NCBI RefSeq assembly: GCF_037975245.1
Contig: NC_092565.1
Span: 20,124,999-20,188,998, forward strand
From: Apostichopus japonicus
Taxonomy: Eukaryota > Echinodermata > Holothuroidea > Aspidochirotida > Stichopodidae
Length of the DNA stretch: 64,000 nucleotides
Direction: 5' to 3'
Made by a program: the position numbers and the translations under genes. Positions within the stretch are counted from its first letter, which is position 1; each line of letters opens with the position of its first letter. Below, piece by piece: positions 8,311 to 52,662 of this stretch. The notes below the pieces were generated by a model, which worked only from the letters and a program-made list of their open reading frames with translations, ran no database searches and had not been told where the DNA came from.

Positions 8311-11300
8311 GTAAAGATAAGTACTACCTCATATATTGTGTCCTTCAAGCTACTGATTTGTTTGTTACCTACTATCTCTTGCCTCTCGATGAACATTTTT
8401 AGTTTGTTTATCAATGTCAGAGAAAATGTTTTAGGATAATTTTCAAAGAGATCAATGAGTTTAGGCCCACAAAAGTTCATAGAAACATCATACACTTAGG
8501 TTCAGCCGATTTTGCATATAAGAACTGTGGTGGAAATTGCTATTGTTGCATTAGCTTATAATCATTTTAGATATGTTTGGATGGGAGAGACATTTTCATA
8601 ACATTGACTTGAAACATCTTTATGTTTGGTTGTGTGGAAAGTTACTGTACATCAATGTCACATCACTTTTAAATACCAACTGATTGGGTAGTCATTCAAT
8701 TCTTGCCGTTATGAAAAGATTACATGTAGATATCAATGTATGGTCATATGAAAAAAAGGGTTGCTTGGAACATTCATTATTTGAAAGTGTTTGTACACAT
8801 TATTAGTAAGCTCTGAGGTTGTCCAATGCAGACTATAACACTTATAGCTAGAATTCTAAACCCAGAGTTCTATGGCATACCTTGAAAGCAGTCCCAGTTT
8901 GATCAGCTAAAACTATGCAGGATCTATGTTATTTTATGCTGTTTTACTTATTTTATTTTTTATTTATGTTTAATTTATTTAAAATATTTAAGACTGTAGG
9001 CTTTGGTGTTAGTTATATGGAGGATTTTGGACATGTTTGTTGTGAACTGGTGACAGTATGTAAACACATCAGGTATGCATTTGTTTTGCAGGAGACCTTG
9101 CTGAAAGGTCTTCAGTACTACTTTTGGCCGGAATAGGTTGGCATCCTAAAATTACTGAAAGTTCCCAAAATACTTTCCTGTAGGTTCTGGCATTACAAGT
9201 TATTTCTAGACATTGAGAAATGTCCAAAGAGACAATTAAATGTCTCCGAGAGGAAGAATAGGAAATGAGTTAAATTAAATCAAATGTTGAAGTTTGAGCA
9301 TGCGTGACCGTTATTTGACTTTCTAGCATATTAGAGCCAGTGCTGTTCATGGTTGTATACAACCTTAGGCTACCGTTTCATCATTTTCTGAATAATGTTC
9401 AATCTTGCCACAATGTTACTGTGAACCTAATTGAAAATTTTGAAAAGTGAAAATTCTGTCTACCGACACATATTCCTACCCGCCCAATCTCCTTGTACAG
9501 GTCTGCAATATATATCCTTGCTGATGGAAAGCATTATTTTGTTACTATTTGTGTATTGCATTCTGGTAAATATGAGCTGATTTTTATACATTTCTGAATT
9601 GATTTGTTGTCAATGTGTATTTTACATTCATTCATTTCAAAGACAATTCTTGGTTAATTATATTAGGGAGACCTCAGATGTCAGCAGATGGTCTCATTGC
9701 TAAACAAATAAACATTCCTTAATAGATTATGAATACTGATGTAAGTCATTTAAATTGATACCCAGATCTGTAACTATAGATGGTGAGGAGAGGAAGCAAG
9801 ATCTTTCTGGACCTTTGAAGGAGTGCTTAGGATGGCTGGAATCATTCTTTAAAGATGCAAGCAGCATCGCATCCTTGCCCCTCCCTCCACTACACATGAC
9901 TGGAATAAAGTCAGGTAAGAGATAAGAGCCGAACACTCTGAGAATACCAATTCATTGGGAAAGAGAGAAATGGGGAGGTAGGATGGGGCTTGTAAAATAG
10001 TTAAAAAAGTGAGGACCATAGGCCGGGAGTGACCCCAAACAGTGATGAGAGCTTGGGGGGGGTATGTATTTATTCAGAAACATCAGTTTCAATGGGTTTA
10101 TATATCCCAGAGTGGTAATAGTGTGTGTGAGTTGGGAGAGGTTTGGTAACAAGTTAGAGCTTAGAAGGAACCTAGTTGAGCATCTTAGGTAGGAACTGGG
10201 ACAGGAGTTAACTTTCTCAGAAATTTATTGGCACCTCTCCCTGAAGAATACTGTCTAACATTAACACCCTGCAGGTCTCCTAATTATTCGTACGGTCAGA
10301 ACTACCAGGAGAGTGTTTGGTCAACTTTTAGCAATCACTAGCATACCCAAACATGAAAGACGGTGCTGATGACCTTACATGCACAGTTGGCTCTTTTAGG
10401 ATAGAGATTCGGTCTTTTATCTGCAATTCATTTCATAATTTTTTTCTAAATCTGTTTCTGTATCATCTAGTAAATATGGCATTCATACAAAAAAACAAAA
10501 CCCTGAAAGCTTTTTTCTGAGATCAACTTCTTTGATACACAGGTTCGTTTATGGACAAAGTACTTCATTCATTGGACGACATTGTGCCTGTGGGAAAGAC
10601 TATCACTTACAAAAATCTTGCTATCGAAATGGAGAATCCGAGGGCTGCGAGGGCTGTTGGTTTGGCAATGGCTAGAAACCCATTACCTATTGTGATCCCG
10701 TGTCACAGGGTGACAAGTTCAGACGGGACTTTAAACAAGTACATTTCCGGTGTTTGCGTAAAACGTTGGCTTCTTGAACATGAAGGAGCAATTTGAAAAC
10801 TTTTCCAAAATTGTTCTGACTATCATCAAACTTTAACTTTCATAGATAAAGCATTCCCGCTAAAACTAAATTGGAATGTGAGAGTTTACGGCTTCTAGCA
10901 TATCAAGGCTCTTTATTTATTATTTCGTAGTTCATCCTCATAGTTGCACATGACCTTCCGAGGTAGAAGATAGATTTAACTATCGGTCTGTAATGTTAAA
11001 ACTCGGTTCATGGAACTCCAGCTCTGTGGAAAGAACGTCCCATCAAACCATACCAATACTTTATATCTCCAGATACATTTGTCAGCAAAGTCTTACACAC
11101 ATTGGCACATGATATTCCTGCTGGCGAGACCATTTCCTACGGAGGACTGGCCGAGAAGGTTGGCAACCCAAAAGCATGTCGTGCTGTTGGCATGGCGATG
11201 AGAATTAACCAAGTCCCTTTAGTGGTGCCTTGTCACAGAGTGGTCAACAGCGACGGTTCCCTCGGTAACTACATGTCTGGAAAAGGCGTCGCTATTAAGA

Positions 11301-11341
11301 AATTTCTTCTCGATCACGAAGGTGCCAAAGTGGAGACTTGA
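8162..11341 (+). CDS. MGMT: O6-methylguanine-DNA methyltransferase with two alternative catalytic last exons
   Basis: Exons 8162-8310 and 9766-9914 join in phase to either of two terminal exons: 10543-10796 (183-aa product) or 11073-11341 (188-aa product). MGMT repairs O6-alkylguanine by transferring the alkyl group to its own active-site Cys, in the nucleus. The N-terminal part keeps the zinc ligands expected from the human protein: the Cys ten residues before the SP/TP turn, the Cys of TGCDQG, the His of GIHEI and the His of PPLHM. Both last exons carry PCHRV with the acceptor Cys, the helix-turn-helix Arg (A/C-RAVG) and a Tyr in TIxY. Exon 3a is followed by no AATAAA before exon 3b, whereas 3b is followed by a canonical signal, so alternative splicing of one transcription unit is the simplest reading. 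A second gene missing its 5' exons would be the alternative. Confidence 0.88.
8311..9765 (+). other. MGMT intron 1
   Basis: AT-rich intron; no further exon or recognisable element was seen. Confidence 0.6.
9766..9914 (+). CDS. MGMT: MGMT coding exon 2
   Basis: Acceptor ACCCAG and donor GTAAGA. Encodes SVTIDGEERK through LPPLHMTGIKS, equivalent to the linker and AWLNAYF region of the human enzyme. It ends one base into a codon, so both downstream catalytic exons fit. Confidence 0.85.
9915..10542 (+). other. MGMT intron 2
   Basis: Contains a G-rich stretch (about 9955-10065) and nothing else recognised. Confidence 0.6.
10543..10796 (+). CDS. MGMT: MGMT catalytic exon 3a (proximal)
   Basis: Acceptor ATACACAG. 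Encodes 83 residues from SFMDKVLHSL, with PRAARAVGLAM, IPCHRV and WLLEHEGAI, then TGA. The glycine two residues before the conserved Tyr in other MGMTs (GNY) is replaced here (NKY). No polyadenylation signal is evident before exon 3b. Confidence 0.88.
11073..11341 (+). CDS. MGMT: MGMT catalytic exon 3b (distal)
   Basis: Acceptor TCTCCAG, same phase as exon 3a. Encodes TFVSKVLHTL through LLDHEGAKVET, with PKACRAVGMAM and VPCHRV, and keeps the GNY motif. It is roughly half identical to exon 3a, so the duplication is old and both copies stayed intact. Confidence 0.88.
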
Positions 11342-13539: not shown

Positions 13540-13746
13540 TCAGGCTGTCTCTGTTTTTTCTTGTGGCTCATTCTGTTGTCTCTCTTTCTGTTCAAGCCTT
13601 TCTTTTAATTCAGTCCAAGCAGTATTTTCTGGTAAAGTGAATTTCCCGTTTTTATCGATTCCAAATAAATAACTTTTCTCCTCTGCTAGGGCAGCTTCTA
13701 TATTTTCATCCAAGTTTTCCAAGGTGATGTAAGATTTGCTGGCCTC
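13540..13746 (-). CDS. MRPS26: MRPS26 exon 4 (C-terminus)
   Basis: Acceptor TGTTTCAG. Encodes EASKSYITLENLDENIEAAL through a Gln/Glu-rich end, then TGA at 13542-13540. Confidence 0.88.
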   Translation of the reverse strand, partial: EASKSYITLENLDENIEAALAEEKSYLFGIDKNGKFTLPENTAWTELKERLEQKERQQNEPQEKTETA

Positions 13747-16533
13747 CTGAAACAAGAAAAAAAGAAAGAAAAACTGATCACAAGAGTCTGGTATAATTAA
13801 TTTAAGTCTCAATGTAGTGGATCATATTTGATTACCAAAATCCACTCAATGGAAGATTGATTTAGGAATACTATTTATTTGTTTTGTCCTGGAACGGAAT
13901 CAAATTTTCTTGAAGTACCAAACATCAGATGGGTAAACTTTGCAACAGACTGAAAATATTTTAATTTTTTTTGGGGGGGGGGGTGGTGTTAAGGTTATGC
14001 AACAAGCAGCTCTAGAACAGAATATCATCAACACCTGAACCATTTTATCACCACTTTTGTTACATTTTCACTTGTTTCATTCATCACCATCCAACCAACA
14101 CTACCATTTGTTTGGTGACCCTTAAAGTCGGTATCCCTTCTAGTTGCCCCTTCTCCTCTTGCTTCAAACTATTTCTCCTTCGATGACATACATCATCAAA
14201 GTTCTACATTATGAAAGAAATATAGTATTTTGTACGTGTCTGTAGCTGAATTCAGCTACCCTTGAGATGGGTTTGATTCTTAACTTGAACTTGACACAAA
14301 CTTACTCAATCTCTGCCTCAAAGTTTAAGAATAGGTTCTTATCTTTGATTGTGACACTGTGGACTTGACAACAACATTTAAACTTATTTACCTTCTCTTT
14401 CTTGACGAGCTCCTCCAGCTCTGCCAGCCATGCTGCCTCTTCTTTCTCAATCTGAATCAATGCCTGCAGTTTCTCTTCCTCTTCACGCTTTGCTTCCTCT
14501 CGGAGCCGTGCTTCCCTGTGGAAGAAAATTGAATTCCCATCACAGAGTCTTTTACTCCTGAATGACAGACAGTAGCTCACAAGGGAGTATTATGGTTCAA
14601 ATGAGACTAACAAATTTCATGGCTCAGAAAGTTTGCATTAATCCATTTAAGATGCCTTCCAAATTCAAATGATTACAAGTCCTGGAATTGACTATACAGT
14701 CAACTTCACGCTGCTACTGGTATCTTCCGTTTAGCCTTTTTAACTTCGAGTCCAAATGTAATATGAATTACTTAGTCTTCCAAAGGTTGCCATGGATGAT
14801 CAAGACTAGTGTGTGAAGATAATCCCTTAAACTCATTCTTGTTGTATTTAGAAACCATTTTTGGCTTTTAAACTTACCACATACTGCTGGTTGTATCAAT
14901 TGATGCATTAATTAGCTAACAGTTGGTGATCAAAGTATCATCAAATGTTATTTACAAATATATAAGTAGGAAAGGGAACACACTGTGTTTACTTTCCACT
15001 GACTGCACACAGCAATCGGAAATTCATCACTGACGTTACTATTCAACTTTCAAACCAAAGAGTGACTGAAAGTTTCTTAATCACCAGGATTTCATCACAT
15101 CTGATAAATATAAATCTTGATGCATAATCCATGCTGAAGTAATTACAGATAACAATCGACAAGATAAATCAAACTATACGAGAATTATCTCCAAATTTAC
15201 CTCAATTGCCTGGTTTTTGCATTTTCTTCTGTATTCCAAAGTAGAAGCTTTTGCCATTCTTCTTCATCCTTCCTACTCTGCTCCTCAAGTGATACACCAG
15301 CAGCGGTCTCTTTGTTCTTACGTCGATGATCTTGGATACAATGAGATCTGCAAACAAAGAATGGATGAAACCGTACAATACTGTTTTTCCTTCTTGGGTC
15401 TAGAATTCTAAAATTTCCAGCCGAAAGCTAAAAAAATGTCTGTGCATATTATGTAAGTTGCTAGCTAAAATCAAATTCTCATTTTTATTTTTCTTAACTT
15501 AATACAAAAGCATCATCACTTTTGCCCTGTTAAAGTAATGCAAGTGTCTTCTGAGCCTTGCCAAGTTATAACTTGCAGCATCTTTACTTGTATGGGGGTT
15601 TTAATGTGACTATTAAAGAAGATAAATACAAACGCTTTGAAACATAAGGGCAAATAACAACTGGCATCAACTTAAAACATGTATAACACATATAATAAAC
15701 ATTTATACTCAATAATTATTTTCATTGCTAAATCCACTTCAGTCAGGTGTTGGGTGAAGGGTTGATGGCATCTCAGTAATGAGTGTTGCTTTATAGCCAT
15801 GGTATTCAAAGATGGGGCCTATTTTAGGGTTGCCAAAAAAATTGCTGTGTCTCGCCCAAAAGTTTGGAAGGAAAAAAGGAACAAAGTGGCTATTCTTACG
15901 ACTATTCGTAAGAATTATTTCCGATTACGCATGCGCAGTTGCTATTTTTATGACAGGAGTACTATTTTTACGACCAGGAGTAACAATAATTTCCGGTTAG
16001 TGTTAGGGTTAGGATTGGGGTTAAAGTTAGGGTTAGGGTTACCCCTACAACATGCGCAGTTGCTTTATTTACTTTACTGCGCTTGAATTCGCCTTTGTCG
16101 TAAGAATAGTTTATAAATAATTCTTACGACTAGTCGTAAGAATAGCCACGGCCAAAAAGGAAGTGTCTCACTTTTCAACCAATGCCATGGTTATCCTTGG
16201 TAATGAACATAAATTCAACATAGGCCTCAGCAGCCTTTCCAAAATGAGGTATTTCATTACTAACCTTATAGCATTAATAAGAATGTTATACTCGTCCCAC
16301 TTCTCCAGGGAAAATTTGTATTCTGCTGGGTCAATTGGTGTTGGAACTCTCACCCTCCCGATTTTCGACTTGGCTATTGGGTCGGTTCTTCTCTTTCGCC
16401 ATCTCACTGTTTGATAAACGCAACCTGTCTGTAAAACAGGTTCGTTTGTGCATTGTGGTATGAACCTACACAAAGATGTTTTGAATGCTTGAAACATTTT
16501 GTTACCCAAGTCCAAGGTTCCGTGGAAAATCAC
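13540..16533 (-). CDS. MRPS26: Mitochondrial small ribosomal subunit protein mS26
   Basis: Four exons (16533-16265, 15347-15201, 14515-14392, 13746-13540) join in phase to a 248-residue product, or 236 if translation begins at the second Met (codon at 16497). mS26 is a metazoan-type structural protein of the mitochondrial 28S ribosomal subunit. The diagnostic block is KRRTDPIAKSKIGRV followed by PIDPAEY, as in family members (TRHDPLAKSKIERV, VDPAEF). The middle is a long charged helix (EARLREEAKREEEEKLQ) and the C-terminus has SYITLENLDENIEAAL, matching FITRENLEARVEAAL. The N-terminus after Met13 is Arg/Ser-rich and lacks acidic residues until position 17 or so, compatible with a mitochondrial targeting peptide. 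The human protein is 205 residues. The gene is head to head with CCT7. Confidence 0.9.
13747..15200 (-). other. MRPS26 introns 2 and 3 (around exon 3)
   Basis: Intron 3 is 13747-14391 and contains a T-run followed by G10 near 13963-13982. Intron 2 is 14516-15200. Nothing else was recognised. Confidence 0.6.
14392..14515 (-). CDS. MRPS26: MRPS26 exon 3 (charged helix)
   Basis: Acceptor TCCACAG and donor GTAAAT. Encodes an Arg/Glu/Lys-rich helix, REARLREEAKREEEE through ELVKKEK, ending in phase 0. Confidence 0.88.
15201..15347 (-). CDS. MRPS26: MRPS26 exon 2
   Basis: Acceptor TTTGCAG and donor GTAAAT. Encodes SHCIQDHRRKNKE through WNTEENAKTRQL; the W-N-x-x-E-N run matches WNQAENRRL of the family. 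Confidence 0.85.
15348..16264 (-). other. MRPS26 intron 1
   Basis: Contains copy 2 of the TIR element (15882-16153), whose right end lies 111 bp from exon 1. Confidence 0.65.
15882..16153 (+). mobile_element. MULE-like non-autonomous TIR element, copy 2
   Basis: Begins CAAAGTGGCTATTCTTACG and ends AATAGCCACGGCC. It is flanked by an exact 9-bp duplication aaaaaggaa (15873-15881 and 16154-16162). The inverted termini match over about 35 bp with few mismatches; each contains the palindrome-like TTACGACTAGTCGTAA. The interior holds TTAGGG-type repeats at about 15996-16045. It is inverted relative to copy 1. The element lies in an MRPS26 intron and has no ORF of its own. Confidence 0.88.
16265..16533 (-). 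CDS. MRPS26: MRPS26 exon 1 (presequence and DPIAKSK motif)
   Basis: Donor GTTAGT. Two Met codons (16533 and 16497) could start translation; the second gives a more typical targeting peptide. Ends AG|, completed to Arg by exon 2. Confidence 0.82.
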
Positions 16534-16984: not shown

Positions 16985-16990
16985 ATGATG
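16985..16990 (+). CDS. CCT7: CCT7 coding exon 1 (Met-Met only)
   Basis: ATGATG followed directly by the donor GTAAGA. CCT7 proteins begin MM followed by a splice junction in vertebrates as I recall, and phase 0 fits exon 2. Confidence 0.75.
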
Positions 16991-19900
16991 GTAAGATATC
17001 CGTTTGCATCTTGTTCTTTTACTTAACAATAAATATATCAAACATGACTTAAGTGATAATTCTTATTTAACTTTATTCTGTGTTGCATTTTTACCTACAA
17101 AATAAAGCTTCTTCTTAAGTAAACGCTAACGTAAATTTCACGTGCCTTGTTCTCGTAACCCGTACCAAACAAGTAGAGGCCTAACTAAAGTACCGTTATT
17201 TGCTAGTACAGCTAATACTACTTACTAACGTTAGGCATTAACTTCATTGTTACTGTTAGGCTGTACCAACAGCGATTCGACTGAATTTCATCTCCACATA
17301 TGAAGATAATGTTTTGTAGGAGGCCATTTCGAATGGCCTCCTACAACACAAATCATAACATGGTGTTCCACAGAGATGAGCTTGCCTAATATCAGACCTA
17401 ACAGACTTGTTGGTAGGCCTCAAGTCCCCGCAGGGAAATAATTAGATAGGGCTAGGCTATAGTTATTACTTCATAAAGACCATTGAGAATGACGCATCTT
17501 CCTAACAGTAACACAGTACCAGTATACAGGAGTTGTAGTGGCGAATGGCAGTAGTTGGGAGGGGGAAATAGTTTTTGAGTCTGAGCCTCAGTGGAGCAGG
17601 TAAAAAAATAATAAGTAAAAGCAACTTGTGACTCTAGCCTACCCGCAAAAAATACTTAGTAAAAGGCAGGGTATTCTATAATAGCACCTAACAATGAAAT
17701 ATTCTTTTGATATGTTTAACTTTAAACAGAGAAATGTTATTTGACTGTCACATGAAAGGAGTGTTTGAAGAAATTGAAAAATTGACCAAACTCAGAACCG
17801 GTTATCAAACCATCACAGTTGATCAGTTATATGACATGTCCGCAATTGTTTTCAAGGTGTATTATTTTCAGAACACACATGTTGTAACTTCCATAAAGCC
17901 AAGGCCTATGTTGGAATCCCTCAACTTTTCCATAAAAATTAATACCTGTTCCAAATTATTATTACCTGGTGTGGAAAACCCTAATGATTCTATAAAAATT
18001 GTTCAAATTAGTGAAGAGGTAACACAGTTTTGTGTAATCTTCCATTAAATCAATTGGTTATAGTTTCTTCCTTCATGTCAAAATCAGTGTTTAAAAGTTG
18101 ATGGAAATGGTGTTTGATTAAGTACATTGTTTACCGTTGTATGTGCATACTGTAGTATAGCCTATGCAATCTCACTTCTTGTGTTAATACTTTCAAACAC
18201 TATCAACGTTGTCCAAATCATTTAGAAGGCAATTTTTATACATTCATCAAAAGACACTTACCTGACTTCTCGCAAGAACTTACAAGAAGGTGTGATAATT
18301 AAGACATCTGGTCACATTCTGTTATGAACCAACTATAAATTTCACCTCCAATGCAAGGACAGGTCCCACAGGCTTAATGTAGAATGGTTGGGAGATTCCA
18401 TATAGGACAGCCTAGGTCTAGGCTACCCTTGCTTGCATTCAACGATAGTTTATACCATTTCCAAAAGGCTCAGTGAATGAACTAAATGCTAAGCTTAACT
18501 CAGATGTGAAGTTTGTACTCAAAATTTAGAAAAGGCCTGGTCTTGGCTTAATTCAAATAAGGTGAGTCAACATGCACAATGGCCCCATCTAGGATTATTT
18601 GTATCCATATCCAATCATTGACATTAGTATCAAGTGAGGTAATCTAAGCTTTAATTTATGTAGGTTTTTGTAAAATTTGGACAACATTCTTAACCTGTTT
18701 TGGGAAAACGAGCGTTATTTAGGGTGTTACAATATAAGAGGCACTGTATGCTGAACAATATAAATATGTACTTCACAAGAGATACTTGCTTAATGTTACC
18801 CATCAGGAGAGTTAAATGTTGCATGTTAATCTCATTTGCATGTTTATTTCTATACTTTGTAAATTGTGGCCAAAGCTCATATTCTCCTGATCGTATTTCT
18901 TCTTGTAGCGTCCACAAATAATCGTACTGAAGGAGGGAACAGAGGCTTCCCAGGGGACATCGCAGGTAGTCAGTAACATCAATGCCTGCCAGGTGGTAGC
19001 TGAAGCTGTCCGCACAACCCTGGGTCCGAGGGGAATGGATAAACTCATGGTTGATGGAAATGGTAAGGAAAACCTTATTGCAAGTGAGAATGGTAGAATC
19101 CATTTCGAACTGCAAACATGACTAATTTTTTAGCCAAGGAGCTAGCTAACCCTGTATTAACATGCTGTCTGCTCTAATATTTTACAAGGCTTATCAGAAC
19201 TATTGTGCATATTGCTCGAATGGAATATCTATATTTTAAAGACGCTGAAACACAAAGAACAATTTAGACTATACGGAAACAACAGTAGGCTAATATCCAT
19301 AATATCTAATAATGTAAATTAAAATATGTAAGAAAGAAAGTGGAAGAAATTTGCAGGGACACATCTTCATGGTCAAGTCACCTGGAGGAAAAAGAAACTA
19401 GCCCCTAACAACAAGCCCACCCCTCCCATCTCCTCCTGTCTACCCTGTCCCCCCACACATACACACCAAAAACTGTGTATTCCATTAAAGTAAGAGGAAA
19501 GTGATATGGAAACCTTAATTTACATCTCATACCAGTTCCAGCCGATATGGGCACAAAGCTCCACATGACTACGTTATTTCCAGTGGTGGAATGGAAGAAC
19601 TCTGTCTAGATGTGAGAATTTATACTTATGGTTCATTCTGTTGGTTTGATATCAAAGATCACAGAGTTCAGATAGTCAAGTTTTCTTCCAAATTGGTTGA
19701 GATCATATGTGAAATCAAACCTGCAGTTTGTCATGGGCCATGATAAACATTTATCCCTAATGGTTAAGCCATGAACAGTACATTGAGTTTATCTTAAGAA
19801 CCATTTTGATGAAGCTTCTGGAAAAATAATGTAAGATTTTCACAAAGCATGATCTCACTTATGTTACCAGTCGGCTAATTAAGACACATAACATGCCTTT

Positions 19901-22900
19901 TCAGCGCCCTATTGTCGTGCATATCTATAATAGTCATGAGCCATTTGCTGAGTTAAGGATATGTATGCCTTACTTCTTTTTAATGGTGCACAAAGTTTTA
20001 TTTCCAAATAACACAATGGAAACGCTTTTTCCTCACCCTCAGGAAAAGCAACAATATCGAATGATGGCGCTACCATCGTAAAGCTCCTTGACGTGGTCCA
20101 CCCCGCAGCAAAGACGCTTGTGGAAATAGCAAAATCACAAGATGCAGAGGTAAAATAACATTCCAGATATGAACCACCTCACTTATTTCAAATTGTTTTA
20201 TCTTATTTGCTCAGGAGACAGAAACGAACCGTTTTAGAGGTGACAGTCTCATGTACAAAGCTTTTTTAATAGCTGAATGCATTTTCAAATGTAGTGTAGC
20301 ACGTTCCAGATGTGTTGGTGTTTTATTCATGACATACTCATAGTATATGAAGGTTCTGCTCACAGGAAACAGCTATAGATCTTTGCATTTGTGTAGCAAT
20401 TCCAAGATAAAGCAAATTCAGCTGTCAATTTGCAAAACATGGTGGGGATGAAAAACTACTCCAAAGCTGAGAACAGTCTTGTCGTAAATTATTCATGATT
20501 TAATGGTGCTATCAATAGGCTGCCATTTTGTCAATTCATGATGTCATAGTACCAGGTGGAAGTGGGAAAACCATTTAAATTTAAAGATAAAATGAAATAA
20601 TGTTAATAAAAACAACATTGCCAATATCACTGGGATCGTATTAAAAAAAATTAACATTTTAGAATCAGCATTGGTAATATCTTTCTCTACCATTGGAAAA
20701 ATGCATTAAATACAAGCTAAATCACTAAAACATTCAAGCATAAGTGACTGGATATGTCATAGTTATACTAAAGACAAGTTTCAGGCCATTAAAACCGTGA
20801 TATATGTCAAAGCGGATTACAAAATTTTAGCTGTTTCACATGAGCTAATGATGATAGGTTGGCTGCTCTGTGTTTCACCAGATTTATAATTATTGCTAAC
20901 TGATCGATCGATCGATCACACTATACAGGTGAGACTGTTATTTCTAGTTATTTCTAGTTTAGCAACATTTACCAGTCCCACTGTGAATTGTGAGTGAATT
21001 GAATATCAAAAAGCTGTTATATGTCATCGATAAATAGACAACCTGTCTCTATCAGGTATTTTTGTTTTTCTTTAAAGGTAAACTTGTATTATCTTTGATA
21101 TACTAATAACCTACTTTTCTTCCCCCCACACTATAGGTTGGTGACGGTACCACTACGGTGACAATGCTAGCCGCTGAGCTCTTGAAGCAAGTCAAGACAT
21201 TCGTTGAAGACAATGTTCACCCGCAAGTTATCGTCAGAGCATACCGCAAAGCCACTCAGTTAGCATTGGAGAAAATTGATGAAATTGCATTTAGTATCCC
21301 TAGAGAAAACCTAGTGTAAGTATCTGACTTGAAGTTTGAGTACCCTGCTGGTTTGGTAATGTCAAAGTTTAGCAAGCAACCTATCCATTGCAAAGCCTGG
21401 CCATGCCTTCCCCTCCCCCACCCCCACCCAAAAAAAAATTAAGGAAAAAGAGAACTTTCACTTAAGCCAGTGATGCATTCTTCGCACTGCTTGCACCCCT
21501 TCAAGCAACTTGACCAAAAAGTTCAATAAAAAGCCAGTAGGTTACAAGGAAAGTCAGAAATGAAGGCAGAGCTTGCTTTAGAGACTGAAAAGATATAAGC
21601 ACCCCCTTAGACACATAAAGGCAGCATTGCCAGAAATGGGGTGGGGGACACACGACTCCCTTCCATCCCACCCCTGGACTGCAAGTTTGACACCCAGTCT
21701 GTGAAAGGGACAAAGTACTTCCTATTGTCTGACATATTCATTCTTTAATCCTGCTTTTGTAGAGAGCACAGACAGTTACTGCAGAAGTGTGCGGCAACGA
21801 CGCTGAGCTCCAAACTAGTCGCCGGGCAGAAGGACTTCTTTGCCAAGATGGTGGTAGATGCAGTCAGCATGCTGGACGAACTTTTACCTCTTAACATGAT
21901 CGGCATCAAGAAAGTACAGGGTGGAGCATTAGAGGTAGATACCAACATTTGTCTCATTTCAAGCAGATTTGATTACTTAAACATTGTTCCAATAATTCCA
22001 TTGGAGTCGGTATTGCCTAAAGGATTGGCTTTCAATTGTAGCTGGAAAAATGAGGTGGATTTAGATGAGATTTTTGTGTTCATTATTGTACTACATTGGG
22101 CTTAAATAGCTGATTATTGTACTCTTCATGGGCTTAATTAGCTGATTATTGTACTCTTCATGGGCTTAATTAGCTGATTTGGTCAAATGATTGATGGGGG
22201 TTGGGACTGGAACCTTGTAGAGGTACAAAATGGTGTGATGATAGTTAAGATTATGCAGCATCACTTAAAACACATCTCAAAAATTTAGATAATGTTTAAA
22301 TTTCATCCATGAGCAGTATCAGAAAACTTAACAGTTTTCAAACCTACATACAGGCATTAATATTTTCCTTGTCTATGCTGTTGACCCTATTACAGGCCCA
22401 AAAAATAATAGCAATGCATTGGACACAAGAAGTGTGTACCATCCAATTAACATGGAAAATTAAGGCACGATTAGAACATAAGGAACAATTTGAAAATCTT
22501 TTACAAAAGTATAGCCACGTGATGTAGTAAACTCAAAAGAGTTACTGGTACAAGCTTTTTCATTGATGCTAGGAAACTGGTTAAATACATTCTGTTATTC
22601 ATTTTGTAAGGATTCTTCAGACCACACATACCAATGTTTTGCAAATTAAATTTGATCTTTCGACAATAACAAAAATTAGAACAAGCAAATAAACACAAAG
22701 GGCTTAAATAAGAAGAAAAAATGCAGCAGGATTTCATTGTTATTGTTTGTTACTTTTCTTTTACCGTTTCTAGGAATCCAGATTGATCGCCGGTGTAGCT
22801 TTTAAGAAAACGTTTTCCTATGCAGGTTTTGAGATGCAAAGAAAGAAATATTTAAAACCCAAAATAGCACTACTTAATGTTGAACTTGAACTGAAGGCTG

Positions 22901-25900
22901 AGAAGGCAAATGCGGAGGTCAGAGTGGACAGTGTAGAGGTGAGTAGAGTCATCGTTTCCATCGGTTACTCTGTTTCTTTCCTTCTAAACATTGCTGCTGC
23001 TTCTCCATTTCCCAGACTCCTTGTAACACTCCTCCTGGGCACTCTGGAGAGAGATGAGTGGAATAGACGAGACCCAACATATGGGATGTTTGTCTTCTGT
23101 GGGGGGGGGGGGGGGTTTAGCTTTTAGATATGTTTGGTGCAAAACCAGTCTTTGGTTGTGAAAGAGATTTGAATTTAGAAATGTGCTGCAATATATTGAA
23201 TCATTCCTCTGAATGCCTTTTTATGGAATGTGTCGATAGGGACCAGGCAGTTACGTGTGATGGACCCAAGGAGGTAGGGAATACTCTGTGTGTTCAAACT
23301 TTGTGAAGTAGCTTTGAAGGCTCTGACTTCATTAAATGCTGTGGTTCCCATGTACAAAACTGCTGTTCGTCTTTGCACTCGTGTAGCATTTTGCATAGCA
23401 TTTTGGGAAGCAGTACCGGAAAAAGTACTCCCTGTGTGGTTCTTACAGGGCCAACAGGTCATAAGTGACTCAGAAGTACTTCCTGGCCCTCATAGAGTTT
23501 AAAAGAAACCCCATAATATGACAATGTTGTTTTGTTGCAGTTCTGAAGCGCTTTGCTTGGCTCTTCTGTTATAATTCTTGTAATGTCAGATCTCTCTGTT
23601 AAGTCTGTGTATTGCACATATTTACTATCTGAGCTGAATCCATGTTACGGTTATGAATAAGAGTCTGTCCCATTCATTGTCGACCCTGTGAACTCTAGCA
23701 TACAAACAGCTCCTGCATCAGAAAATCAATGGCCATGACCAGGCTAGGCAATACCTATATATTTCTACATGTTGTGTTTTCTTTATGAACTCTTTTAGGA
23801 AAAACTTGCATCTAAACTGTTATAGTTTATTGTTCACCCTGCTTTTTGTGTCCATGATGTCCATTCAGACAAAGAGGAGATCTTAAATGAAGAATCTGTT
23901 TACCCATGATGACATTTGAAGTACTCTGTCCATGCATCTATTAAGAGAATGGGGAAAAAACATGTTCCAACTAATGATTTTTCATTTTTTCTCTATTTTA
24001 GGAATATCAAAACATTGTAGATGCAGAATGGACAATTCTGTACGATAAACTCGATGCCATCGTGCAGAGCGGTGCGAAGGTTGTGCTTTCCAAGCTTCCT
24101 ATTGGTGATGTTGCTACACAGTATTTTGCTGATAGGTGAGTTATTTTTTTTTTATTTGCTTCTGTTAATCAACTTTTGGTTCCTTTGTCTTCCCAAGTAG
24201 TCATCAATGCCACATTCATCATTTTCATCATTTATATAACCAAAATATCTTTCTTCACTGTCAAAACTATATTGAGGGGGGTGGGGTGGGGGGCTGTGAT
24301 GTCTCAACAATCGCATAACCATGATGCTTCTTGCCCTTTAAAAAGACCTACTTTTTCCCCCTTTTATTCCTGTGTACAAAAGCTCTTATGTACATGTTTG
24401 CACTGGTATAGAAATTTAACCATTTGGCATATCATTTTGTGATGTGGTACAGTATAAAATTATTTCCTGATTGTGGTCAAGCGTTGTTCTCTTTGTATCC
24501 ATCTGAAAGGTTTGAGTTGTTCCAACAAACAAAATTTCCTACAACGAGAGAAGTTTGCAATGTCTATCTGAGCTATATTTACAAAACTCCTGTGTCATGA
24601 AGATTAAGAAAGCACTGGGTTAAAAACAGGGCAACGGCTCATGCCCTATTCAGGTGGTACTTTGACGGCCATTGTTTTTGTTCTCAAAACACTGTTATTG
24701 TTTACACTCTAAAGTATAAATTGCTTAAACTTTGTGAAATAAATAAAATCTAGCAGAAATTACCTTTGTCATAATAATAGGCCTTGTCTGTAGTAAAAGA
24801 GATCACGCCATCACGGTAGTAGAGATCCATAGTTCGTGTAGATGATGGAAATCAGAGTGAGGCTTTCCAATTTGAAACTCATGTGAGCTAAAGTTTGCCA
24901 AATCTCCCATTGATTTTGACTTTGAAAGCTTGATGTTATAGTTGAAGGCTAACTAACCTATGCTAATTTGAAAAAAAGAAAAGATGAATAATATATTATG
25001 TGAGGATTTTTTTTAAATGATGCCCACAGGATAAAACCGTTGTCGTAGCAAGTATATACCACTCGATGGTTAAAATTCAGGAAAAAATTCCCCCTTTTCC
25101 ATGGAAACACCATCCAATCAATACTTTGATATAGCTTTGCTTTTTGATTTTTACTTTTTCTTTTTTCTTTTATGATATATTACAATAGATTATTTCTAAT
25201 TCACCTTGAATGGTGAGACGGTAGTCTCATGTGAGGATAGGTTACCTTAGGGACATCAAATTATTTAACATTGAAACTTAAAATGTATGTATATATGTGC
25301 ATAAATAAAAAAAAATTAAGAAGGAAGTTAGTAAGCAATCATGATCAGGAAAGTTTCTGTTTTTTTGAGAAGAGAATGCTTCAACAACAGTTTTATGGTT
25401 CAGAATAGGAAAGAGCCAACTTTGAAATGAAATGTCATGTCGGATATATAGACAAAGTTTGAAAACATGACGGTGCTCAAATCGCTAGAGATTAGATCCC
25501 CTGGTTCTTCATATGTCCTTTTTTAAGGGACCAGGGGAGAGGTAATGGAAACACTTATCTTGGACCAGCTGAGGTTTAAGATATCCACATGAGTCAACCA
25601 CAGATTTGTTGCCATAATTCTGTCAGGTGTTACGATTGTGGTAGATTGACCCTGGTCCAGCATGAGGGATTACCTGTGACCGTTCTGGTCACAAATCTTC
25701 CCGTTATCTTGTCTAGACCAGGAACCATTCCCATTGAGAGTTGGTCCTTTGTCTGCCTTCATGGCAAGCTATTGATACGGGCCTTAGTTTTGGGGATGGA
25801 CATTTAAATCTCATTTTCAATGAAACTGCTGGAGGGTGAGGTATTAGATTGGATTTTTTGTCTTACCTTGATCCGCAGGAAACTGATTTAATTTACCAAT

Positions 25901-28900
25901 TATTGCTGTAATTTATCACGATTATTATCATTTGTGATGAAGAAATTTTGTTTAAAGTTTAAATATGAAGTTAGGAGAAAGAGGGGGGGCGGGGAATTAT
26001 GCCCCTCGATGGCCTTTTGTCAAGGTTCAATTTATACAGAGGGAAGAAGAAAAGGCTAAATCTCTGGCAGTCTGCAATTCTGCGGCTAACTCCTGCAACT
26101 CTTTCTTCGCCTTTATAGAGTAGAGTAGTTTATTTGCTTCTGACGTGTATTTGCAGAACTATTTGACCAAAGTTTCAAGTAAAAGTGTAAAGCAGGTCGA
26201 TTTTTCCGTGCATTCACACTTTCATGAAGTGCATATGAACATTGCTAGTAATTCCCACTACACCCTTCACCATGACAAGAGACAGTGCCAATGGAAATGT
26301 GTCAAAAAATCTGTTATTTTGTACAAACAAAACACCTTTTAGCTCACATGACTACCTTAAAGGTCTCTCGGCTACCTCCCAGGGGTCGTGAAGGATATGA
26401 GCATATCACACTGCGACATAACAGTATGCAGCTGCTCACTCTCTCTTGTTACTATTCCCAGGGACCTCTTCTGTGCGGGAAGAGTGCCAGAAGAGGACTT
26501 GAAGCGTACCATGCAGGCCTGTGGGGGCGCCATCCAAACATCCGTGCAATCCATGACAGACGACGTCCTCGGTATGTGCGAGATATTCGAAGAGGAACAA
26601 ATAGGAGGCGAAAGGTGAGAAAGTTGTACGTGTGTGGTTGTCAACGTTGCTGTGATTTTTGTGGAAGGTGTCGAAGGGGAAGGTGTAAGTGGGAAGGATT
26701 CCCACACAGGTGAAATGTCATGGGCTACTCTTAAGATGGCTACACATTGCATAAAGTGTCAACATGTAACGGTCACTAGAGCATTACTTGTGAAAGAGAA
26801 GTTTTACTTCCAAGGAATGAAAAAAAAGAAGAAGAAGAATACTTTAAACCATCGTATTAGTAACTTACAAATTTGAATACAGGAATGGTACTATTTACAG
26901 AACCAAAAATCAATGTTAAAAGGTTGCTCAATTGAAAATAATTTCCACTCTTCTGTCTTCCCTTTCGGGGGGAAAAATATCAAGAGTTTCCATTTAGAAA
27001 ACATTGTGTTTACATTTTCATTGTATGATTCCGTTTACAGTACCTGTTGTTGATCTTTGCTGTTGTATTGCACTCTTGCAATTTTGTAATGCCTACTAAA
27101 TAAGATGCTGACTATAAGACTAGCTCCTGTGGTAATGTCTGTCTTACTCAGGTGATCTGTTCTAAGCTTTTAGGATTCCAGCCACATGAGTCAACCACAG
27201 ATTTGTTGCCATAATTCTGTCTGGTGTTACGATTGTGGTAGATTGACCCTGGTCCAGCATGAGGGATTACCTGCGACCGTTCTGGTCACAAATCTTCCCG
27301 TTATCTTGCCTAGACCAGGAACCATTCCCATTGAGAGTTGGTCCTTTGTCTGCCTTCATGGCAAGCTATTGATACGGGCCTTAGTTTTGGGGACGGACAA
27401 CTGTTGTTCTGTTTTGTTATATTTAACCGAGCAGGAGTCCGGTGTGCTGTACTTGCTTAGAGCAACTGGACTGCTGATATTAAGCAAGGTATTAAACCCT
27501 AGTTAGGGTTCTGCTCAAGCAGCTTTTAATTATATGCTGTTATGCAGGGTATCTTTAAAGTAATTGCTGTTGTATCAGACTCCAGGGCCTGACATAAATG
27601 CTTTCTTTCTGGCCAAAGGCAAGTGGATATTGCATCGGACGTGTAGCATTCGCTCATGACTAGTCCTCTGGGCCTGTCAATGTTTACTGCAGCAAATTTG
27701 AGAAAAGCAAATTAAAGATATTAACTAATGCAACCCCAGTTTGATCATGATGGCCTTGCAAAGATTGATCTCTCAGTAGATGAGACCATCAAGAACCCAA
27801 CGTCACAAAGTAAGGACAAGTGAGCTAAATATAAAACCGCAGGATGTTTGTCAGATGCGTTTTATCACTTTTGTCGGTACGTCTTTCTTGATCATTCTTT
27901 TGATTTTTTGTTGTTGCAGGTTCAATCTCTTCACAGGTTGTCCACAAGCCAAGACATGCACCCTGATACTCCGAGGTGGAGCTGAACAGTTTATAGAAGA
28001 GACCGAGAGATCCCTCCACGATGCCATCATGATCGTCAGGAGGGCCATCAAGAACGATGCCGTAGTAGCAGGTATGTTGCATGTTCAGTGGTGTCACCAC
28101 CGTGGTGACCGCTCCCCCCCTACCACCACCACCCCATGTCATGGGCTACTAAGTCGTCAAGAGGCGGCTACTACATTTTCTCAGTCGAATCATAGTAAAC
28201 CAGTAAAATATCATTGTATGGTCACAGAAAACATATTGTTACAAGGATTTGTTTTTTTGGGAACACATTGTGTGTTAAATATAATACACATATTTTTCAA
28301 AAGGATTTAAGTAAACCAAAACCTTCAGGTAGTAGCCTTACTTTGAAGTTTTGTAATTGTTTTCTTTTTTGGAGTTTTAAAGTAAACCGTTAAAATGAAA
28401 GGAAAAACTTGGTTTTTCGCTGTATAAGATTCATTTACACAGATGTTAATAGAAGAGACTTGCAATATTTAACGAAGGGCAAAATGTAAGATTTTCCAGA
28501 AAAAGAAAGCTGAAGAAAACTGCATTTTCTTTAACGAACAGACTTGTTACATTTTAATGAAATCTTACCTGATAAACTTTGGCCTTTGCCTCTTTTATTA
28601 ACACTAATGTGGACTCAGAAACAAGCGAAACATAAAACCAAATACATTTGTTGAACTTTGCCGATGAAGACCAAACCCGAACGTGTATTGGAAAGGCGGT
28701 CAAAATTTATGTGGTGTTGTTTGTTTGGAAGTAAAGTTAAAGATCTTATACTTTACCCCGACGATTTCTTGTCAAAGCTCTGACACTGATCTGTATGGAA
28801 TCCTTGGAGAGTCAATTACCTTGTTGGTTTCAGGTGTTGTCCTACTTGAAGTAGGATATTGAGTTTAATTCTCTTTTTTTTTTTCATTTCAAACACTTTC

Positions 28901-31900
28901 TTGTCCACGGTGATGAACTTGCCTTATAATAACAAGATAAGGTTTTCCTTTCCTTAAATCGAGAGAAAACCAAAAAAAAAGGGGGGGGGGGGATGTTGAA
29001 TTATTCATCTTCATGTGGGAATTTCTTAGTTGTGGTTTGAATGTGATTAACCACAATGTCGATGAAGCTGAATGTTGGACAAGTTTCCCAGAGTGGAACT
29101 TTGCCCATAAAGTATTCTTAACTTTTGTGGGTCAAATGGGAAAAAAAAGGCGAATAAATTGTTACCTCGACTTCTTGTAAGTTTGATAAATTTCTGTGAT
29201 TCTTTGTTGGCAATCTACGAAAAAAAATGGTGGGAATATTGCAAATTCCCAACCAAATTATAGATAGATGCTTTAAGGCTACTGATAATCTTAATTAGCC
29301 GAGCCAGACAATTTTGCCCTGTCGGTGGATTGAAAATTTTAATCTATCTTTTGGACGATGGCGAAAGAAGTTTATAGGTTGCAGCAAAACTTCTTTGTAT
29401 CTTGTATTTAAAGAGTTGTTATTAAGCGTAAACGTACCTCAAGATCAGTATTAAATTCTGAGAGAAACATTCTCAAAAAGTGTGTCAAAGTCTTTTACCT
29501 CCAAACCCAATAATGATGAGCTGTCTGTTTTAGTGTGAGGAACATTGTCAAACCGGTTTAATTAAACTTTGTATGTATTGTGAACAATACTGCCGCGTAT
29601 AAGCCGTAAATTGATGCGCTTCGAGGTACCGTTGGGATTTGCGGTTTGTCTCGTTAATCGAGATGAGCAGTGACGTTAGTCGATGTTCCTCTGGACAGAG
29701 ATGGCCTGTTTTGTATCTGCCGTGCTCAAAACGTTATTTCATTAGATGTTTCTGGGGGATTTGGGGTCTCATCTATTACATAGGTTTGACACACATTTCT
29801 TGAGAGTTCATCACTGTTCTGTTTGTTCAGACGTGTAAATTAGGGTGCACTTTGAAGATTTGAAAGTAAAAAAATATGTCTGTCGATGGCCCTACATTTC
29901 AATTGGTTCTAATTTGTGTGAAGGTGCACCCAAGTCGTATGACCTGTGATAGAATGTTTATAAGTGACCTTGTTGGGGTTCTGTATAAAGCTAGATTAGT
30001 GATGTTCTAGGGCAGCGTGTCCTTGTTAATGATTGCCCATATGTCTTCAGATATGTTGTGTTGTGAAGGGGGGGGGGTGCAGGGTAGGGAAGGGTTTTGA
30101 GTTTATGAGGTGTTCTGAAAAAAAACCCAGAAACCATAGCCTTCATGTTGTGAGTACATTGGGTAGAGAATACATGTGAAAGCCAATGTATTATAATGAA
30201 TTCTTAGAGATTACTATCAAGTTTAAGGAACTTACAAGGCAAACTGTAATTATGGTAAGAAACCAAGGTTTGGCATAAGATGTATCCTTGCCTAGTTTAT
30301 ATATCAGTTCCATCCCTGCCTGGTTCCTTTCAATCCCCCCCCCCCACCCACCTCTTCCCTCCATTCTGCACCCTCCCCTTTATCTTTCTCACTCTCTCAA
30401 TATTCTTATTGTTCTCTTTCTTAGTTGAAACAGTTAGAAAGAGAATCAAAGCTCATGTTTTGTTTTTTTTTTCATTTCAGGCGGTGGTGCTATTGAAATG
30501 GAGATCAGTAAATATCTTCGAGATGTGTCGAGGACGATTCCCGGTAAACAGCAGATCCTGATTGGTGCCTACGCCAAGGCCCTGGAGATCATTCCTCGCC
30601 AGTTGTGTGATAACGCTGGCTTTGACGCCACCAACATTCTCAACAAACTGAGGCAGAAACATGCCCAAGGTAAGTGGCGGGCGGTAAGGAGAATCTCCCA
30701 CTGTAATTAAAACTAATTTCCAATCCTCTGTCTTCCCTTTCGGGAGGGGGGGTGGGGGAATATCAGAGTTTACATTTAGAAAACTTTCTGTTTACATTTT
30801 AATTGTAAAAAAAAAAGTTTACAGTACCTGTGGTTGATCTTTGCTGTTGTACTGCACTCTTGCAATATTGTAATGCCTACTAAATAAGATGCTGACTTTA
30901 AGACTAGCTCCTGTGGTAATGTCTGTCTTACTCAGGTGATCTGCTCTTAGCTATTAGGATTCCAGCCACATGAGTCAACCACAGATTTGTTGCCATAATT
31001 CTGTCTGGTGTTACGATTGTGGTAGATTGACCCTGGTCCAAGCATGAGGGATTACCTGCGACCGTTCTGGTCGCAAATCTTCCCGTCATCTTGCCTAGAC
31101 CAGGAACCATTCCCATTGAGAGTTGGTCCTTTGTCTGCCTTCATGGCATCTATTGATATGGGCCTTAGTTTTGGGGACGGACAGCTGTTGTTCTGTTTTC
31201 TTATATTTTTTGTTATATTTAACCAATAATGTCCCGTATGATGGTCTAGACTTGTCAGGGGTTCTAAATGAAATGAAATTTTCTATGGTGACCAGAAAGA
31301 GGTATTAGTTGTAGCAAAGAGCCTGAAAGAAGCTAAATCTCACTCTAGGGTAGACTAGGGTAGGACTGTAAGGTGTCCAAGGCTACATACCTGATTGCTG
31401 CATTATTGCTGGCCAATCTTATTTTCAGGCCAGATTGAAATCTTTTCTGAAGGGAATTAGCTAGAGGCTTCCCTTTAAGAGATCTGTTGTAATATAGCAC
31501 CTTTTTCTGTGATTGGTAGTATTGAACAGATTTGTTAGTACTTTCATCTGTAAGTACAACACAGAAATGGAAAAACAACAGGTCTTCTGAGTATGATGGA
31601 CATTGTTATGATTTAAATCAGCGGTCTGGAAACTTAAGACCTATGACCTGGGAGATTCCATGAGCCACAACCCACCAGACCCCCCCTCCCCCCACCCATC
31701 ACAATCCATGCTCAGAATGCATGAATTCTAGTTTGGACTGGACGTCACCAAGCTTTGTAAACTTGTTTTATGATGTCTGGAAATTCCCAAAAGACCCACC
31801 AAAATTTGTTCTGTGACCTTTTCTTGGGTCATGCCCCATAGTGTGTGGATCATTGATAAAATACAAGCCCTTGACCAGTGGAAGTAGCAAAAGTATGCTA

Positions 31901-32200
31901 TATTAGAATGACATTGCAGAATAAAGCTCCAATGTCCTGTTTATTGAAAGCTTTACCTTTCTGTTCTCATTAGGGGCCAAGTGGTACGGTGTAGATATCA
32001 ACAAGGAGGACGTAGCTGATAATCTGGAAGCCTGCGTCTGGGAGCCTTCAATCGTCAAGAAAAACGCCCTGACCGCAGCCTCAGAGGCAGCTTGCCTCGT
32101 GCTCTCCGTAGACGAGACCATCAAGAACCCAAAGTCACAAAATACAGACAACAGACCAGCCCCTGCACCCATGGGACGGGGTAGAGGAAGACCAATGTAG
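16985..32200 (+). CDS. CCT7: T-complex protein 1 subunit eta (CCT7), complete, 11 coding exons
   Basis: The exons are 16985-16990, 18909-19062, 20043-20149, 21137-21315, 21763-21934, 22774-22938, 24002-24135, 26462-26614, 27920-28071, 30481-30669 and 31974-32200. They total 1638 nt (545 residues; human CCT7 has 543) with phase preserved at every junction. CCT7 is one of eight subunits of the cytosolic TRiC/CCT chaperonin that folds actin, tubulin and WD-repeat proteins using ATP. Visible motifs are LGPRGMDKL and ISNDGATI (nucleotide-binding), VGDGTTTVT with the conserved Asp, the apical segment [35 protein letters not shown] and WYGVDI. The C-terminus is Gly/Arg-rich (GRGRGRPM). Introns 7, 8 and 10 each host an H/ACA snoRNA copy. 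Confidence 0.97.
17314..17346. repeat. Perfect 15-bp inverted repeat with 3-base centre
   Basis: The arm TTGTAGGAGGCCATT and its exact complement flank TCG. Weaker complementarity continues outward for about 15 bases each side. Possible RNA hairpin or cruciform in CCT7 intron 1. Confidence 0.7.
17707..18048 (+). other. Unrecognised open frame inside CCT7 intron 1
   Basis: A 113-codon frame. Within it, an acceptor-like TTTAAACAG (ending near 17730) and a donor-like AAG|GTGTAT (near 17857) would bound an exon encoding about 42 residues beginning [19 protein letters not shown] do not recognise a family and see no companion exons. It may be a chance frame or a relic. Confidence 0.15.
18909..19062 (+). 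CDS. CCT7: CCT7 exon 2
   Basis: Acceptor TTGTAG and donor GTAAGG. Encodes [17 protein letters not shown] through [14 protein letters not shown]. Confidence 0.93.
19063..20042 (+). other. CCT7 intron 2
   Basis: AT-rich intron with a C-rich patch at 19420-19455. No element was recognised. Confidence 0.6.
20043..20149 (+). CDS. CCT7: CCT7 exon 3
   Basis: Acceptor CCTCAG. Encodes [18 protein letters not shown] through AKSQDAE. Donor GTAAAA. Confidence 0.93.
20150..21136 (+). other. CCT7 intron 3
   Basis: Contains a (GATC)4 tract at about 20902-20917 and a short TTATTTCTAG duplication at about 20939-20958. An ATGATGA...CTGA pair at 20846-20904 resembles C and D boxes but has no terminal stem. 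Confidence 0.55.
21137..21315 (+). CDS. CCT7: CCT7 exon 4 (GDGTT ATPase motif)
   Basis: Acceptor CTATAG and donor GTAAGT. Encodes [16 protein letters not shown] through FSIPRENL. Confidence 0.95.
21316..21762 (+). other. CCT7 intron 4
   Basis: 447 bp with a C/A-rich patch; nothing recognised. Confidence 0.6.
21763..21934 (+). CDS. CCT7: CCT7 exon 5
   Basis: Acceptor TTGTAG and donor GTAGAT. Encodes [18 protein letters not shown] through [12 protein letters not shown]. Confidence 0.93.
21935..22773 (+). other. CCT7 intron 5
   Basis: Contains a 32-bp tandem repeat (22098-22180); otherwise unremarkable. Confidence 0.6.
22098..22180 (+). repeat. 32-bp tandem repeat, 2.6 copies
   Basis: Units start GGGCTTAA(A/T)TAGCTGATT at 22098, 22130 and 22162, the third partial. 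Units 1 and 2 differ at one base, implying recent slippage. Confidence 0.9.
22774..22938 (+). CDS. CCT7: CCT7 exon 6 (apical domain)
   Basis: Acceptor TTCTAG and donor GTGAGT. Encodes [19 protein letters not shown] through AEVRVDSVE. Confidence 0.94.
22939..24001 (+). other. CCT7 intron 6
   Basis: Contains a G14 run at about 23101-23114. A more complex stretch at 23200-23500 has several short inverted repeats (for example CCCTGT...ACAGGG) and is open on both strands. No family was recognised. Confidence 0.5.
24002..24135 (+). CDS. CCT7: CCT7 exon 7
   Basis: Acceptor ATTTTAG and donor GTGAGT. Encodes [17 protein letters not shown] through [10 protein letters not shown]. Confidence 0.94.
24136..26461 (+). 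other. CCT7 intron 7 (hosts snoRNA copy 1)
   Basis: A 2.3-kb intron. Its one recognised element is the U19-type H/ACA RNA at 25585-25805, about 660 bases before exon 8. Confidence 0.65.
25585..25805 (+). ncRNA. SNORA74: U19/SNORA74-type H/ACA snoRNA, copy 1 (CCT7 intron 7)
   Basis: A 221-nt unit ending ACA plus three bases. Hairpin 1 has lower stem CCACA/TGTGG, left guide GAGTCA, upper stem ACC-ACAGA/TCTGT-GGT and right guide GTTAC. These pair with UGACUC and GUAAC and leave the UA of 28S rRNA GUAAC-UA-UGACUC unpaired. The 3' hairpin has lower stem CCATTCCC/GGGGATGG directly before ACA, left guide GAGAGT, upper stem GGTCC/GGGCC and right guide TAGTT. These pair with ACUCUC and AACUA and select the next-but-one U. 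Such a pair of guides defines U19 (human) and snR191 (yeast). A third, internal hairpin is closed by CCTGGTC/GACCAGG. No perfect H box (ANANNA) follows hairpin 1; AGATTG is close. This copy keeps every lower-stem pair. Confidence 0.85.
26462..26614 (+). CDS. CCT7: CCT7 exon 8
   Basis: Acceptor TTCCCAG and donor GTGAGA. Encodes [18 protein letters not shown] through FEEEQIGGE. Confidence 0.94.
26930..27433 (+). repeat. Intron-to-intron duplicated segment carrying snoRNA copy 2
   Basis: Matches 30703-31229 along its length, including TCTGTCTTCCCTTTCGGG, TGCTGTTGTA.TGCACTCTT and GACTAGCTCCTGTGGTAATG upstream of the snoRNA and about 30 bp after it. Copy 1 in intron 7 lacks these flanks. Confidence 0.85.
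27182..27402 (+). ncRNA. SNORA74: U19/SNORA74-type H/ACA snoRNA, copy 2 (CCT7 intron 8)
   Basis: 221 nt, over 90% identical to copies 1 and 3 by eye, with both guide pairs unchanged (GAGTCA/GTTAC and GAGAGT/TAGTT). It ends ACA-ACT. It differs from copy 1 in one arm of the internal hairpin (GCGACC...GGTCAC, leaving a C-A mismatch). It also has an A-C mismatch in the 3' closing stem (GGGGACGG). Confidence 0.85.
27920..28071 (+). CDS. CCT7: CCT7 exon 9
   Basis: Acceptor TTGCAG and donor GTATGT. Encodes [20 protein letters not shown] through [11 protein letters not shown]. Confidence 0.94.
28072..30480 (+). other. CCT7 intron 9
   Basis: A 2.4-kb intron without a snoRNA copy. Between about 28570 and 29760 the sequence is less repetitive than its surroundings, with TAATTA-type cores (GGTTTAATTAAAC near 29555). 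It could be a conserved non-coding block, but that cannot be tested here. Confidence 0.45.
30481..30669 (+). CDS. CCT7: CCT7 exon 10
   Basis: Acceptor ATTTCAG and donor GTAAGT. Encodes [18 protein letters not shown] through [12 protein letters not shown]. Confidence 0.95.
30703..31229 (+). repeat. Intron-to-intron duplicated segment carrying snoRNA copy 3
   Basis: Partner of 26930-27433. It differs by small indels in the poly-G and T-rich parts and by a duplicated TATATTT block at the right end. Confidence 0.85.
30966..31186 (+). ncRNA. SNORA74: U19/SNORA74-type H/ACA snoRNA, copy 3 (CCT7 intron 10)
   Basis: 221 nt, ending ACA-GCT. Both guide pockets are unchanged. In the internal hairpin this copy has GCGACC...GGTCGC where copy 1 has GTGACC...GGTCAC: a compensatory U-A to C-G exchange that keeps the stem. 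One single-base insertion (CCAAGCATG) and one deletion (GGCATC) rule out protein coding. Confidence 0.85.
31974..32200 (+). CDS. CCT7: CCT7 exon 11 (C-terminus)
   Basis: Acceptor TCATTAG. Encodes [18 protein letters not shown] through GRGRGRPM, then TAG. Confidence 0.94.

Positions 32201-42376: not shown

Positions 42377-52662
<10,286 letters not shown>

Follow-up and report, generated by a model that had tools for sequence, protein, structure and literature searches.

Yeast snR191, an H/ACA small nucleolar RNA (snoRNA) that is an independent gene, and human U19 (SNORA74) are the described RNAs closest to three units that lie in introns of the chaperonin gene CCT7 in the stretch analysed here, a 64-kb window from the echinoderm Apostichopus japonicus (contig NC_092565.1). 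The likeness to snR191 is drawn by listed sites: we take 25S 2258 and 2260, for which it is a listed guide, to be the equivalents of the uridines that the CCT7-intron units are predicted to target, and human 28S 3741 and 3743 are presumably the U19 sites. In the literature, snR191 is given as the guide for 25S 2258 and 2260 in helix 69 (PMC8307265), which bears out the yeast targets named in an earlier note on this DNA, and human 28S pseudouridines are listed at 3741 and 3743 with a value of 100 each (PMC6182160). The 28S stretch that holds the target lies next to the insertion site of the R2 retrotransposon, which is described as well conserved across eukaryotes (PMC3774820). Human SNORA74A derives from the U19H transcript, about 2% of which encodes MATR3 (PMC3766210), whereas the units described here have a protein-coding host, CCT7. 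Other CCT subunit genes carry H/ACA snoRNAs in chicken, namely TCP1 in introns 1 and 9 and CCT6A in intron 3, but those RNAs are related to ACA29, ACA20 and ACA28, not to U19, and their host is not CCT7 (PMC2653536). It is a known pattern for one host gene to carry paralogs in separate introns (PMC2653536, PMC8178906), and intragenic duplication is a standard way in which vertebrate snoRNAs gain paralogs (PMC2653536). Most human H/ACA families have more than one host and probably grew by retrotransposition, a route that other vertebrates are believed to lack (PMC8178906). The excerpt of PMC3511168 contains no mention of SNORA74, snR191, CCT or chaperonin. Judged by title and the start of the abstract, none of the 10 open-access papers listed (of 11 that name both CCT7 and snoRNA) deals with CCT7 as a snoRNA host, nor do the 20 listed of 1,442 in a wider set mention CCT7, and CCT7 as a U19 host seems to be unreported in the literature searched, the RNA type itself being known.

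The three units are very probably intron-encoded H/ACA snoRNAs of the U19/SNORA74 (yeast snR191) type, which as a whole best explains what we observed in their sequence, gene, model match, fold, pocket fit and duplicated blocks. Each unit is 221 nucleotides (nt) long, with ACA three bases before its 3' end, and all three lie on the sense strand of CCT7 introns, so that the lengths, endings, start positions and intron placement claimed in the earlier note were confirmed (coordinates of all features are collected in the table below). The exons of CCT7 were set by eye and checked by script, which gave ten GT..AG introns and a single open frame; the units end 656, 517 and 787 nt before the 3' splice sites of introns 7, 8 and 10, respectively. 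The identity of the host is clear from 11 distinct PDB sequences matched at E-values up to 1e-200, all named T-complex protein 1 subunit eta. Among the 120 matches listed of 6,933, the nearest named CCT7 homologs are from echinoderms (Patiria, 86%; Strongylocentrotus and Diadema, 85%; Lytechinus and Anneissia, 84%), and the closest homolog has 94% identity. With the bases after ACA left out, copies 1 and 2 are identical at 214 of 218 positions (98.2%), copies 2 and 3 at 213 of 219 columns (four substitutions and two single-base gaps), and copies 1 and 3 at 209 of 219 columns (eight substitutions and two gaps). Variable columns among the three copies number 12, none of which falls within the guide elements or pockets. 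The earlier note had also proposed CCT7 as the U19 host in this lineage; the part of this claim that stood is the presence of three copies in one CCT7 gene, and its reach is this window, not the lineage.

A search of the window with the Rfam covariance model of U19/SNORA74 (RF00090), the check suggested in the earlier note, returned significant E-values for all three copies: 1e-5 for copy 1, 3.1e-5 for copy 3 and 1.1e-4 for copy 2, or 9.6e-7 to 1.1e-5 when 6 kb were searched. Every copy aligned over the full length of the model (positions 1-201). At E-values up to 0.5 the window held four Rfam matches, three of which were RF00090 at the three units, while the fourth, Ocean-VII, had a chance-level E-value of 0.2. 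The minimum-energy fold of each copy and of their consensus consists of a 5' hairpin, a hinge, a middle hairpin, a 3' hairpin and ACA, and this three-hairpin layout with its extra middle hairpin agrees with the structure line of RF00090. None of 200 shuffles of copy 1 or copy 3 folded equally well or better, and for copy 1 the centroid and minimum-energy structures agree on the 5' hairpin. At one pair in the stem of the middle hairpin, copy 1 has U-A where copy 3 has C-G, a change on both sides that supports this stem, and copy 2, with C.A, stands between the two; among three sequences this is a single case that carries no statistic. The units share with the SNORA74/U19 model the full-length alignment, the three-hairpin layout, the ACA and both guide pockets, and differ from it in being 20 nt longer than its 201 positions, in reaching about half of the curated score and in having an H box that is one base off.

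The guide pockets point to the same two targets in every copy. In the 5' hairpin, GAGTCA starts at unit position 7 and GTTAC at 45 in all three copies; in the 3' hairpin, TAGTT starts at position 201 throughout, and GAGAGT at 152 except in copy 3, which has a one-base insertion and GAGAGT at 153. In the RNA, GAGUCA/GUUAC and GAGAGU/UAGUU border the upper stems of the first and last hairpins, and their reverse complements fit GUAAC-(U)-A-UGACUC and AACUA-(U)-G-ACUCUC. The claim that the first pocket selects the U of GUAAC-U and the second the U two bases on was accordingly upheld, at the level of sequence, in each of the three copies. The target letters used for this comparison, GUAACUAUGACUCUC of 28S rRNA, come from the earlier note and general knowledge, not from A. 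japonicus rRNA. By the H/ACA rule, ACA lies about 14-16 nt from the pocket; in all three units it follows the first base of TAGTT by 15 nt. Searched on both strands of the window, the 3' pocket plus ACA pattern occurred only at the three units, and a looser 5' pocket pattern occurred at the three units and at one place on the minus strand; a pattern scan of viral contigs found none.

Given these features, the units would be transcribed together with CCT7 and then freed from the spliced introns, and the freed RNA would be bound by the dyskerin/NOP10/NHP2/GAR1 core. The resulting ribonucleoprotein is predicted to guide pseudouridylation of two adjacent uridines of 28S helix 69, one through each of the 5' and 3' pockets. 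Both uridines belong to the helix that forms an inter-subunit bridge at the decoding site. Having three copies would most likely mean a higher or more robust dose of a single guide, and a lineage in which a chaperonin gene carries three guide copies lends itself to a natural test of the importance of guide dose.

Copies 2 and 3 lie in a common duplicated block, a finding new in this analysis, and the direction of the duplication can be read from a fossil that intron 8 holds of CCT7 exon 11. Read over 27770-27826, the fossil keeps its frame open for 17 residues and then runs into a TGA inside a donor-like GTGAGC word. In the simplest account, intron 8 received a copy of a piece reaching from intron 10 into part of exon 11, which brought copy 2 with it, and this 3'-end piece would since have lost its middle. 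Between copies 2 and 3, substitutions number 4 of 217 positions in the RNA versus 24 of 251 in the whole upstream block (p 3e-4), and selection on both copies is likely, though not proved.

Several observations weigh against the assignment of the units to functional U19-type RNAs. A scan of the window at the Rfam gathering threshold reported nothing, because the scores of 33.0 to 36.6 bits lie far below the curated cut-off of 71 bits, about half of it, which lowers the claim to formal membership. The cut-off is meant for automatic annotation and is not a biological trait of the family; the low scores mark the units as diverged, and they are genuine new members of the known U19/SNORA74 family, which the default Rfam cut-off overlooks at least in this genome window. 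The hinge holds the H-box-like word AGATTG (AGAUUG), whose last base departs from the consensus ANANNA in all three copies, and the two ANANNA words of each unit, at positions 3 and 131/132, both lie outside the hinge; the word at 131/132 was rejected as an alternative H box since it is located in a stem. In the centroid structures, the 5' hairpin of copies 2 and 3 has a different pairing that takes in hinge bases, and the 5' pocket of these two copies is therefore no firm prediction. At the foot of the 3' hairpin, copies 2 and 3 have an A.C mismatch where copy 1 is paired. Copy 2 combines this mismatch with the C.A in its middle stem and has the weakest fold (z of -1.59 versus -3.57 and -3.58), matched or bettered by 14 of 200 shuffles. 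Compared with the nearest 149 upstream bases alone, its RNA is also not significantly more conserved (4 of 217 versus 7 of 149 substitutions, p 0.13). These points would suit a reading in which only one or two copies function and copy 2, perhaps also copy 3, is a decaying duplicate; we consider this rather unlikely, as the guide elements, ACA and hinge letters of copy 2 are all intact and the RNA is more conserved than the whole upstream block. It is far less probable still that the units are a chance repeat, or a mobile element, that folds like a snoRNA. A repeat family could also account for three similar interspersed units, but those in CCT7 match one specific snoRNA family over its full length, carry both pockets and all lie in sense orientation in introns of one gene, and the window holds no further RF00090 match at E-values up to 0.5 and no further 3' pocket pattern. 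A repeat element was rejected on these grounds, and chance occurrence on the model E-values and pattern counts.

With the units read as U19-type snoRNAs, the origin of copy 1 has to be explained separately from the block. Its homology with copy 2 begins at the first base of the RNA and ends with ACA, a span of exactly 218 nt; directly upstream no base is shared, and the flanks are unrelated, so copy 1 arose by a process other than block duplication. These exact boundaries speak for copy 1 as a snoRNA retroposon, made from the mature or almost mature RNA, and not as a DNA duplication, and retroposition is thought to be the main source of human H/ACA copies (PMC8178906). This is a serious possibility to which we give somewhat less than an even chance, as no poly(A) tail is present in the 3' flank of copy 1, only the last of the three bases behind its ACA agrees with copies 2 and 3, the first two being different from both, and flank matching found no target-site duplication beyond chance, the best match, TTTAA, being reached or beaten in 1095 of 3000 random placements. 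By comparison, rhesus snoRNA retrogenes are described with a target-site duplication and a poly(A) tail (PMC2832892), and work on chicken raised the possibility that the retroposition of snoRNAs began in mammals (PMC2653536). Alternatively, copy 1 may be old and have been kept similar to copy 2 by gene conversion and selection, a reading with nearly even prospects: conversion ends where homology ends, which here is the edge of the RNA itself, and copies 1 and 2 start 1,597 bases apart within one gene. Against it, the 91% block around copies 2 and 3 shows that this duplication at least is so recent that conversion need not be invoked. Because flank homology and a poly(A) tail are both lacking and the target-site duplication is at chance level, an RNA-level copy and gene conversion between older copies are both plausible. 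Compared with known cis duplications and retroposons, what differs at this locus is that one H/ACA guide is present three times in a single gene, apparently by two processes. That one guide multiplied in one echinoderm host by a 3'-end duplication together with an exact-boundary, RNA-level copy into intron 7 is a tentative proposal with the balance of evidence tilted against it; if it holds, RNA-level copying, which has been reported in mammals but is doubted elsewhere among vertebrates, would extend to a non-mammal. The CCT7 copies provide a test of the ways in which H/ACA guides spread from intron to intron in non-mammals. An inverted-repeat element was also considered as the carrier of copy 1 and rejected, given that neither of two imperfect AT-rich pairs in intron 7 encloses it. 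Separately, a perfect 9-base inverted repeat (25497-25505/25530-25538) was noticed by eye 46 bases upstream of copy 1.

Table. Features of the CCT7 locus and its three U19/SNORA74-type units (positions within the 64-kb window)
Feature	Position	Strand	Remarks
CCT7 host gene	16985..32200	+	11 coding exons, 545 amino acids; exon 1 is ATGATG only and is the least certain
CCT7 intron 7	24136..26461	+	contains copy 1
CCT7 intron 8	26615..27919	+	contains copy 2
CCT7 intron 10	30670..31973	+	contains copy 3
SNORA74/U19-type H/ACA snoRNA copy 1	25585..25805	+	CCT7 intron 7; RF00090 36.6 bits; fold z -3.57
SNORA74/U19-type H/ACA snoRNA copy 2	27182..27402	+	CCT7 intron 8; RF00090 33.0 bits; fold z -1.59, weakest of the three
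SNORA74/U19-type H/ACA snoRNA copy 3	30966..31186	+	CCT7 intron 10; RF00090 35.0 bits; fold z -3.58
Copy 1 5' hairpin guide pocket	25591..25633	+	GAGTCA at 25591, GTTAC at 25629; fits the U after GUAAC, 28S helix 69
Copy 1 hinge TAGATTGAC with H-box-like AGATTG	25642..25650	+	from minimum-energy folds; letters identical in all three copies
Copy 1 3' hairpin guide pocket	25736..25789	+	GAGAGT at 25736, TAGTT at 25785; fits the U two bases further
Duplicated block around copy 2, intron 8	26930..27424	+	91.3% identity over 506 columns to 30705-31208
Matching block around copy 3, intron 10	30705..31208	+	partner of 26930-27424
CCT7 exon 11 fossil piece in intron 8	27770..27819	+	50 nt, 88% identity to 32102-32151 within exon 11

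Other features of the window were noted in passing. A tRNA scan of its 64 kb found no genes. CCT7 intron 5 contains a 32-bp tandem repeat of 3.1 copies (22082-22179), and an interstitial telomere-like GGTTAG repeat of 7.8 imperfect units lies upstream of the gene at 15995-16041. Also upstream of CCT7, on the opposite strand, an open reading frame (ORF; 13540-13821, minus strand) has a Pfam match to MRP-S26, mitochondrial ribosomal protein S26. The charged, glutamate- and lysine-rich ORF at 14302-14589 (minus strand) has as its sole Pfam match Baculo_LEF5, with an E-value of 0.001 that is under the cut-off, and is possibly a further exon of the MRP-S26 gene. The region 48107-48442 (minus strand) gave a weak match, under the Pfam cut-off, to the COE1/EBF helix-loop-helix domain, and an exon with a 6-O-methylguanine DNA methyltransferase domain (Pfam PF01035) is found at 11000-11341 (plus strand).

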